A stretch of 40,803 nucleotides of DNA. Source: Bacteroidota bacterium (lineage in GTDB: Bacteria > Bacteroidota > Bacteroidia > CAILMK01 > JAAYUY01). Shown piece by piece: positions 8,358 to 11,486 of the stretch; the stretch's first letter is position 1; every line of letters starts with the position of its first letter. Below the pieces are notes generated by a model. That model was given only the letters and a program-made list of their open reading frames with translations, was not told the origin of the DNA and did no database searches. Both the position numbers and the translations under genes were made by a program. Location of the stretch: assembly GCA_018698135.1 (NCBI GenBank), contig JABINZ010000153.1, forward strand, positions 1 to 40,803, given 5' to 3'.

Positions 8358-11300
8358 TTATGACACAACAATGTTAATGATTTTATTGGGGACGAAAATA
8401 ATTTTTCGAACTGTTTTTCCTTCTAACCATTTTTTAGATTGGGGGTTATTCAATATTTCCTTTTCTACCTCCTCTCTTGAAATTTGTGTTGGAAAGGATT
8501 GTTTGAATCTCATTTTCCCATTGAAAGAAATGGGGTATTCATGCTCATCTTCCTTCATATAATCTTCATTAAAGTTTGGGAATTGAGTTTTTGTAACACT
8601 TGCTCGATGACCTGCCATAGCCCATAATTCTTCAGCAATATGGGGTGCAAATGGAGAGATTAAAACGATTAATGGCTCCAAAATATTTCTTTTTGTGCAA
8701 GCTAATTTAGTTAAATCATTGACGGCTATCATAAATGAACTGACAGATGTATTAAAGGAAAGTCGTTCAATATCATCACCAACTTTTTTGATAATTTTGT
8801 GTAGTACTTTTAACTCCTGGTCGGTTGATCTTTCTTCTGATAATTCAAATTCATTTTGCTCATTGAAATACAAATTCCAAAATTTCTTCAGGAACTTTGA
8901 AACACCTTCAATGCCATCTGTATTCCAAGGTTTGTGAAGCTCAATAGGGCCGAGGAACATTTCATACATACGAAAAGTATCCGCTCCATATTTGTCGATT
9001 ATTAAATCAGGATTAACAACATTATGCATGGATTTTGACATTTTTTCAATGCTATATCCACAATGATATCTGCCATCTTCCAGAATAAACTCAGCTTGTT
9101 TGAACTCAGGTCTCCAGGATTTAAAAGAGTCTATATTTAGATAGTCATTCTCAACAATGTTTACATCCACATGCAAAGGGGTAGCATACAAGTCTTTGTC
9201 TTTGATGCCGGCAGAAACAAAAATTGGCTTGAGTTCTTTGTGCTCTCGGGTTAAATACGACTCAACATCCTGACCTATAGCCATTTCTTTGATCTTATTA
9301 ATAACATCATCCAGATTTTCTAGAATTCTGATAACTGGTATAAGAAGTAAGTTGTAATCATTTTGATCAAAATATTCTTTATATCTGGATTCCAGCTTTT
9401 CAAGTTTTTTATGCTGTTTAATCTCCAATACAATTTTTGCATCCTGACTGAAAAAATCAAATTCACGATGACCTTCTTTGTATTTACGGTGAAATTTTAT
9501 ACCTGTTTTGAGTTCCTTGATTTGTTCCCAAAGAAGATATTCAGCATATTTTTCAGGGTTAACACGATACACAAAATTTGAACGACCTTGAATCATTCCT
9601 TGATTGACTAACTTTTTGAAGGGCTCTTCTTTGCAACTTAATCCGAGGTCAAAAAGAAATTTATTCCAAAAGCGTGAATAAATTAAATGTCCTGTAGCAT
9701 GTTCAGTCCCACCAATATACAAATCTACATCCTGCCAATATTGTACAGCATTTTGTGAAAAATACTCTTGATCGTTTTGAGGATCCATATACCTTAAATA
9801 GTATGCACTTGAACCTGCAAAACCTGGCATGGTATCCAATTCCAATTGATATCCTTTAGCTGTTTTCCAGTTTTCGGCTCGTGCTAAAGGCGGCTCTCCA
9901 TCCTCTGTTGGTAAGTATTTGTCGACTTCCGGCAATTCCAATGGAAGCTCAGATTCCTCCAGAACTTTGGGTATATCATTCTCATAATATACTGGGAATG
10001 GCTCTCCCCAATAACGTTGACGGCTGAAAATAGCATCTCGCATCCGATAGTTAATCTTGAATTCTCCTATTGCAAGTTCTTCAAGTTTAGTATTCATTAC
10101 ATGCATTGCATCTGCCACCTCAAGCCCATTCAGAAAATCTGAATTAATAAGAGTTCCTGCTTTCGCATCATATGATTCTTGATCAATATTGCCACCACTG
10201 ACAACTTCAATAATGGGTAGATCAAAATGTTTTGCAAAAGCATAATCACGACTATCATGTGCAGGAACAGCCATGATAGCTCCAGTTCCATAACCAAAAA
10301 GGACATAATCTGCAATCCAAATAGGCATCTTTTCATTTGTGAAAGGATGAAAGGCATAGGCACCTGTAAATTGCCCACTTACGTTTTTAGTTTCTGCTAT
10401 TCGATCTCTTTCTGTCCGTTTGCTGGTAATTTCAATGTATTGCTCTATCTTTTCTTTAAACTCAGAAGTGGTTATTTTACTAACTAATGGATGCTCTGGA
10501 GCAAGAACCATATAGGTTGATCCAAACAAAGTATCTGGTCTGGTCGTAAAAACCTCAATCTGAAATTCGCAATCTTTCTGCCTCCCTGGGCTTGTCGAAG
10601 GCGCTGCCGCAATCTGAAATTCTATGCTGGCTCCAGTAGATTTGCCAATCCAATTTCGTTGCATTTCTTTCAAGGAATCGGACCAGTTCACCTGATCGAG
10701 TCCTTGCAAAAGTCTTTCAGAATATGCAGATACCCTAAGTAACCATTGAGTCATTGGTTTTTGAACCACCGGATGCCCTCCACGTGCCGACAAGCCATCT
10801 TTAACTTCATCATTGGCTAATACTGTCCCTAATTCAGGACACCAGTTTACTGTGGTCTCTGCCTGAAATGCCAATCGATAATTCATCAATATGGCTTGTT
10901 GTTCTTTTTCTGATTTGGAATTCCATTCCGCTGCAGTAAAACTTAATTCTTCTGAACAGGCAGCTTGAATATGAGCAGTTCCATTCTGAGAAAACTCTTT
11001 AACCAAAGATTCTATTGGTTCAGCTTTCTGTGATTCATTATTGTAATAATGCTTGAATAGTTGAATAAATGTCCACTGAGTCCATTTATAATATGAAGGA
11101 TCAGATGTTCTGACCTCCCGATCCCAATCGTATGCAAAACCTATTTTGAATAATTGCTCTTTATATCTTTTGATATTTTCATCGGTTGTAACAGCAGGAT
11201 GCTGACCTGTTTGAATAGCATATTGCTCAGCAGGCAAACCAAAAGCATCAAAACCCATTGGGTGAAGAACATTGAATCCTTTCAGAACTTTGTAGCGGCT

Positions 11301-11486
11301 GTAAATATCGGAGGCTATATAACCCAAAGGGTGACCAACATGAAGTCCGGCACCTGAAGGGTAGGGGAACATATCCAAAACATAAAATTTTGGTTTGTTC
11401 TTATCAATCTCAACTTTATAGGTTTTTTGAGTGTGCCAGGTTTCTTGCCAATTCTTTTCTATCTGTTGGAATTTATATTCAGCCAT
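8358..11486 (-). CDS. leuS: Leucyl-tRNA synthetase with two unusual in-frame insertions
   Basis: This 1042-residue class I synthetase charges tRNA-Leu. The HIGH-type signature is HVGH (49-52), the editing domain carries TTRPDTLFG and [11 protein letters not shown], and the KMSKS loop is at 815-819. The rest ([32 protein letters not shown]) follows the Bacteroidetes bacterial type, which is usually about 920-950 residues. The extra length is in two places. Residues about 293-310 come from an inserted palindromic repeat. Residues about 643-753 form a DUF559-like nuclease domain between GRSNFVYRV and the IFVSAGI/HVDVN segment, inside the leucine-specific region. All catalytic signatures and the C-terminal anticodon region are intact, so the enzyme is presumably functional. 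Confidence 0.95.
9228..9560 (-). other. DUF559-like (PD-(D/E)XK endonuclease-like) domain inserted in LeuRS
   Basis: Residues about 643-753 of LeuRS are absent from the usual Bacteroidetes enzyme, where YRI leads almost directly to the HVDVN segment. The insert follows the DUF559 pattern in order: [33 protein letters not shown], a lysine/arginine helix, YNLLLIPV, then [10 protein letters not shown]. This corresponds to the DUF559 series W-x-L, GxKFRRQ, VDFYCxxxxLVIE, RD, GYxVLR, ENxxxVxxxI. The putative nuclease triad is D677, E688 and K690 (D-x10-E-x-K). DUF559 belongs to the Vsr-like restriction-endonuclease fold. The assignment is by motif only. Confidence 0.75.
10556..10622. repeat. REP-like palindromic element with 13-bp direct flanks, inserted in leuS
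   Basis: The 13-mer CAATCTGAAATTC occurs twice (10556-10568 and 10610-10622), flanking 41 bases that hold the core CTCCCTGGGCTTGTCGAAGG at 10582-10601. This core belongs to a dispersed family (TTCGACAAGCYCAG) found in many bacterial genomes. The ends GCCT/AGGC can pair. The added 54 bases encode 18 residues ([14 protein letters not shown] plus a duplicated EFQI), so the reading frame of leuS is kept. No second copy was noticed in the window. Confidence 0.8.

Follow-up and report, generated by a model that had tools for sequence, protein, structure and literature searches.

The leucyl-tRNA synthetase (LeuRS) encoded in the window (the whole 40,803-nucleotide stretch of Bacteroidota DNA analyzed here) carries a DUF559-family nuclease-type domain. 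We consider it probable (roughly 0.6) that this domain stems from a single ancient insertion, now belongs permanently, as a folded unit, to the mature synthetase, and would still cut nucleic acid, as predicted from its active site.

A complete LeuRS with an inserted domain

The window LeuRS matches the bacterial LeuRS model TIGR00396 over its full length (924 bits; cut-off 548). This match, along with the HIGH-type motif, the editing domain, and the KMSKS motif (Table 1), identifies it as a bacterial LeuRS. An earlier note on this DNA had stated that the synthetase motifs are undisturbed, and HVGH, the editing domain, and KMSKS are indeed intact.

Table 1. Features of the window LeuRS, and loci of other proteins with embedded DUF559.
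Feature	Positions	Strand	Basis
leuS, leucyl-tRNA synthetase, complete, 1042 aa, insert-bearing	8358–11486	-	TIGR00396, PDB LeuRS matches
HIGH-type motif HVGH, residues 49–52 (H49-V-G-H52), intact	11331–11342	-	motif reading
Editing (CP1) domain, residues 277–468, intact	10083–10658	-	PF13603, 202 bits
DUF559/PD-(D/E)XK domain, residues 643–755, hairpin tip of the leucine-specific domain	9222–9560	-	PF04480, AlphaFold2, Foldseek
E649, first-helix glutamate, counterpart of E in canonical TEAExxLW	9540–9542	-	invariant, 12 inserts
D677, predicted metal ligand, strand 2 (insert 32–38)	9456–9458	-	invariant, 12 inserts; AlphaFold2
E688, predicted metal ligand, strand 3 (insert 43–48)	9423–9425	-	invariant, 12 inserts; AlphaFold2
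K690, predicted catalytic lysine, strand 3	9417–9419	-	K in 11/12, R in 1/12 inserts
KMSKS motif, residues 815–819, intact	9030–9044	-	motif reading
LeuRS site A loci: L037, L042, L044, L048, L058, L065, L079, L092, L149, L169			
LeuRS site B loci: L045, L050, L053, L064, L073, L163, L170–L172			
Non-LeuRS host loci: L066–L069, L071, L074, L077, L078, L088, L090, L091, L145–L148, L151–L153, L155, L157–L160, L164–L167, L177, L183			

The earlier note had placed a DUF559 nuclease-like domain at 9228–9560. This segment (residues 643–753), searched alone, matches PF04480 (DUF559) with 32.2–32.3 bits (E 1e-7), and in the context of the whole protein the match scores 27.0 bits, above the curated cut-off of 20.6. 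The match covers profile positions 16–106, the N-terminal part of the model being trimmed. The location was thus right, and the borders can be improved to residues 643–755 because insert-free relatives read GRSNFVYR-IxDTNT-FVS. In place of the hairpin tip of these short-form relatives, the window LeuRS has ~110 residues, bordered by RV/NPEK and KPI/FVS.

The alignment of the protein to LeuRS structures in the PDB breaks off between residues 638 and 803 (T. thermophilus 583 and 626), and the insert, ~60 residues ahead of KMSKS, therefore lies within the leucine-specific domain, as proposed earlier. We refer to this position as site C. The NQGM-to-KMSKS spacing is 187–189 residues in the window LeuRS and its kin, versus 78 in many other Bacteroidota and 11 at minimum, which does not bear out the concern that all Bacteroidota LeuRS have a segment of this length. 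Across Bacteroidota LeuRS without DUF559, the loop between these motifs ranges from 11 to ~158 residues (L008, L009, L013, L015, L016, L019, L024, L032, L047, and L051).

Fold and predicted active site

AlphaFold2 was run on the window insert and nine relatives. The model of the insert (pLDDT 85.5, pTM 0.79) consists of a helix (insert residues 2–14), three strands (24–29, 32–38, and 43–48), a second helix (50–65), a fourth strand (70–75), and a final helix (76–94), and by AlphaFold2 and Foldseek contains the αβββαβ core of the PD-(D/E)XK fold. The top PDB neighbors in Foldseek were the endonuclease-like protein 3hrl (probability 1.00), PvuRts1I, an R2 retrotransposon protein, and I-Bth0305I, with Vsr further down. 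High-probability neighbors were mostly nucleases of the PD-(D/E)XK fold, at moderate TM-scores and a best E-value of 0.0014, with nothing at 0.001. AlphaFold models of the whole LeuRS (8 sequences; pLDDT 46.5) were set aside. The Pfam score and the predicted fold together uphold the assignment of a DUF559 nuclease-like domain. Among 12 site-C inserts searched alone, eight were recognized as DUF559 (E ≤ 0.1) and eight matched the DpnII-MboI restriction enzyme model weakly; weak matches to the SfsA nuclease model also occurred.

The D-x10-E-x-K triad and its numbering (D677, E688, and K690) had been given correctly in the earlier note. As in PD-(D/E)XK enzymes, the second strand bears an aspartate and the third an E-x-K, with D677 and E688 present in 12/12 inserts and K690 in 11/12, the remaining one having R. 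Canonical DUF559 copies have E-x-D-G-x-x-H after the D-F strand, in agreement with the E-x-D that the note had called usual; conservation of this run is partly by construction, because the pattern used to collect these copies required most of it. The run is absent from the site-C inserts, all 12 of which have E-I-K/R, and no conserved histidine occurs across the 12. The EDxHD active-site series is likewise incomplete, with E and D kept and H and the second D missing. The canonical run is similar to that of EDxHD-type enzymes; these and classical PD-(D/E)XK enzymes are thought to share related forms of two-metal hydrolysis (PMC3943268). The change from E-x-D-G-x-x-H to E-x-K yields what is, as judged from sequence and model, a textbook PD-(D/E)XK site, and we infer that the insert would still bind a divalent metal and cut nucleic acid.

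Conservation of the insert

The 12 site-C inserts are 40–74% identical to that of the window. Of the 114 alignment columns, 29 are conserved at 90% or more, and E649, D677, E688, and position 690 (K/R) all belong to this set (chance 0.0036); only 6 of the 26 columns with an acidic majority do. The dN/dS of the insert is about 0.06–0.09 (0.061–0.086 where dS could be estimated), compared with ~0.05 in the rest of LeuRS; the ratios are rough because dS is high (1.7–2.1 in the insert), yet they are far from neutral. These substitution patterns indicate that the insert is under purifying selection and that the domain is retained for some function. The net charge of the site-C inserts ranges from −6 to +4 (near zero or negative), unlike that of a general nucleic acid binder.

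Some of these features would also suit a domesticated, non-catalytic module that binds tRNA or stabilizes the leucine-specific domain, its acidic residues and lysine being retained to support the fold or to contact metal or tRNA. E645, K646, E654, R674, E696, and K697 match the triad in conservation, the canonical histidine and second aspartate are lost, and the insert is located where tRNA is handled. We regard this alternative as possible but somewhat doubtful, since loss of catalysis usually frees active-site residues, whereas all four predicted positions are kept here in the classical arrangement, and since the charge of the insert is not basic.

Canonical DUF559 embedded in LeuRS and other proteins

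Canonical DUF559 (109–124 bits) occurs at two further sites in Bacteroidota LeuRS. Site A is the strand entering the editing domain, and site B is directly ahead of TMPGWAGSS. One site-A LeuRS (L169) belongs to genome G142, which consists of a single contig, and this argues against assembly error. In a survey of the class, DUF559 was found in 102 of 198 genomes, and among the best-scoring 150 matches listed, 59 lay inside open frames of at least 350 amino acids. Among the hosts identified by NCBIfam or Pfam are LeuRS, IleRS, and acetyl-CoA synthetase (Acs); MetH; MutS, RecG (at two positions), RecJ, and a RecB/UvrD-like helicase; RluA and TsaB; HsdR and an Eco57I-type methylase; a CoA transferase and PurQ/PurL; and SpoIIE-type phosphatases. 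The embedded canonical copies commonly read DFVC, the free-standing ones DFYC. The genome of the window itself has two free-standing canonical DUF559 genes flanked by palindromes, L001 (G000:C192:30922-31248) and L002 (G000:C174:4507-4824); L001 has a nearly identical palindromic unit on either side.

The copies at sites A and B have palindromic DNA at both ends. Pyrimidine-rich hairpins were found within 230 bases of embedded DUF559 in 56/60 cases on the 5' side and 56/62 on the 3' side, and next to free-standing DUF559 in 14/15 and 13/15, versus 3/56 and 8/62 (embedded) and 0/15 and 0/13 (free-standing) in control regions 800–1030 bases away; this pyrimidine-rich, GC-rich definition, the only one to separate flanks from controls, was picked after viewing examples and subsequently applied to further loci. 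An initial generic hairpin definition had given 13 and 14 of 31 flanks versus 1 and 6 controls. The typical 5' end reads CCTCACCCCCGGCCCCTCTCC-AAAGGA-GAGGGG and the typical 3' end AAGTCCTCTCCTTTGGAGAGGATTTAGGTGAGG. Within hosts, the palindromes are translated into linkers such as PSPKERG and VLPNGEDLGGA. At site A of the window LeuRS (10568–10616, minus strand), the linker is 11 residues longer, and a hairpin search there found none.

The embedded canonical copies (23 rows) group in a single starred clade that excludes the free-standing ones, and different hosts are mixed within it. Copies at sites A and B are distributed patchily, both among families and inside one genus, in which three of 40 genomes have DUF559 at site B of LeuRS and four at site A, while in most others both sites are empty. 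In two LeuRS of these 40 genomes, site B holds no more than a palindrome-like scar. Palindrome-only inserts lacking DUF559 were also seen in L117, L125, and L032 (site B) and L114 (site A), with peptides like PLSSSGGGGAKATEEE and PSNSPKGGESSSANPSPLGRSGG; these may be scars or non-autonomous elements.

On the LeuRS tree, neither the site-A holders (AU p 5e-50) nor the site-B holders (2e-5) make up a clade. With the short alignments of the inserts themselves, one origin of the site-A inserts was not rejected with 9 rows (AU p 0.13) and was rejected with 15 (3e-5), one origin of the site-B inserts was marginally rejected (0.046), and one origin of the MetH inserts was not rejected (0.089). Losses, homing, and repeated insertion may all be among the causes of the patchiness. 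From these patterns, canonical DUF559 looks like a mobile element encoding a nuclease, which enters host genes in frame and remains in the protein unspliced. A search of the PMC literature, outside of which most subscription papers lie, returned nothing joining DUF559 with LeuRS or describing in-frame DUF559 elements. These elements probably constitute an undescribed mobile class, in which palindrome-ended DUF559 is read through in essential proteins without splicing, and of which the window LeuRS would be a domesticated end point.

Distribution and origin of the site-C insert

The window's family is represented by four genomes, all with the site-C insert. Scanning 84,980 species genomes with a sequence pattern identified ten site-C loci, one in a same-genus genome already known and nine in further metagenome-assembled genomes, which belong to the Bacteroidales apart from one labeled Chlorobiota. 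An eleventh match, L108 of Gracilimonas, was rejected, being a free-standing DUF559 of the ordinary kind. When 395 genomes of the class and 396 of the phylum were searched by profile, the insert turned up only in the window's family, and it is therefore rare; the same searches found no close free-standing relative. The same-genus genome with a nuclease-bearing LeuRS also encodes a second, compact LeuRS (L060, G001:C84:4419-6863; 820 amino acids, without the leucine-specific extension), which may be either a second gene or a contaminant (the genome table gives 4% contamination).

On a LeuRS tree built with sparsely filled columns, and hence the inserts, removed, ten holders and one non-holder (L014) form a starred clade. 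Because the non-holder lies inside the holder clade in this free tree, the insert may have been gained twice or lost. Forcing the holders into one clade made the tree no worse (AU p 0.77), so that a single origin is not rejected, and the site-C inserts form a clade of their own (100, starred). The simplest reading of these trees is one old gain followed by vertical descent.

Pyrimidine-rich hairpins were found at the ends of none of 11 site-C copies. Both the active site and the clade of the site-C inserts are distinct from those of canonical embedded copies, and a single LeuRS lineage for inserts at sites A, B, and C was rejected (AU p 0.005). On these grounds, we take site C as a separate event. 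A donor drawn from the class's pool of in-frame-inserting DUF559 genes is plausible, though the site-C branch is long.

The canonical copies, palindrome-ended, housed in LeuRS and many other genes, and polymorphic within a genus, invite the idea that the window insert is itself a selfish nuclease element, still mobile by homing or transposition and hitch-hiking in an essential gene. The absence of palindromes makes this quite unlikely, as does the lack of a close free-standing relative; furthermore, the site-C inserts track the LeuRS tree closely and are fixed in the window's family, with no presence/absence polymorphism among its four genomes, unlike sites A and B within one genus. The earlier note had offered domestication or hitch-hiking. 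Domestication stands for the window insert, whereas current hitch-hiking is at odds with its apparent single old origin, its presence throughout the family, purifying selection, and missing palindromes; the hitch-hiking reading fits the other LeuRS of the class with canonical DUF559 at two other sites.

Inteins and intron ORFs typically place nuclease domains in frame within essential genes, and the segment might accordingly be a remnant of one, removed from protein or RNA. This is very improbable, since Pfam detects no Hint or intein family, a search of Rfam no intron, and the insert has neither a Cys/Ser/Thr start nor a His-Asn end and is only as long as a nuclease core; the earlier reading that intein features are absent holds. 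Chance resemblance of an ordinary variable leucine-specific loop, which the highly variable loop length in Bacteroidota LeuRS without DUF559 and the modest Pfam score might suggest, is ruled out by the eight of 12 inserts that match DUF559 alone and by the nuclease fold of the independent structure model, which also counter the earlier concern that the segment is an ordinary leucine-specific fold with no DUF559 match.

Proposed history and role

According to the preferred reading of a retained nuclease-type domain, a small PD-(D/E)XK DUF559 domain would have entered the LeuRS hairpin tip once, in the ancestor of a few Bacteroidales-type lineages, and would have been retained ever since as a folded part of the mature enzyme. 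Its donor may have belonged to a DUF559 pool that repeatedly inserted in frame into LeuRS and other proteins of the class. The predicted site suggests that metal binding and nucleic acid cutting would be retained, the likeliest target being tRNA or some other nucleic acid that LeuRS encounters, in response to a trigger. The leucine-specific domain is mobile and operates near KMSKS and the tRNA acceptor end, and tRNA is therefore the first candidate substrate or ligand. If correct, this reading opens a possible link between translation and nucleic acid cutting, for example in stress or phage infection. As for the non-splicing elements, they would be selfish genes whose persistence in essential genes depends on loops that tolerate them rather than on splicing out, and this pattern accounts for oversized, DUF559-bearing housekeeping proteins in some Bacteroidota.

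Comparison with known systems

The window insert shares with DUF559 (PF04480) and 3hrl-like small endonucleases its family by the Pfam cut-off, the fold, the first-helix glutamate, the aspartate, and the glutamate of E-x-x. It differs in having E-x-K rather than E-x-D-G-x-x-H and in being part of a LeuRS rather than free-standing. EDxHD homing endonucleases (I-Bth0305I, PDB 3r3p) and Vsr have a fold related to it by Foldseek and likewise provide a nuclease-type domain inside a host gene, whereas the window insert has no splicing element, DNA-binding arm, H and D of the series, or sign of present mobility. Inteins with homing endonucleases are similar as in-frame nuclease-type inserts in essential genes; the window insert, however, lacks a splicing domain and junction residues and remains in the protein.

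Rickettsia palindromic elements are palindromic DNA found in frame in housekeeping proteins and encode ~45 residues. Their in-frame palindromes resemble those flanking canonical embedded DUF559 copies, but they encode no nuclease, and the window copy lacks palindromes. Lastly, aminoacyl-tRNA synthetases with appended domains have an extra domain that is built in and kept, as here. We know of no synthetase with a PD-(D/E)XK-type domain having a conserved active site, and, if the preferred reading is true, the nuclease-type domain described here would give these essential enzymes an added function of a new kind.
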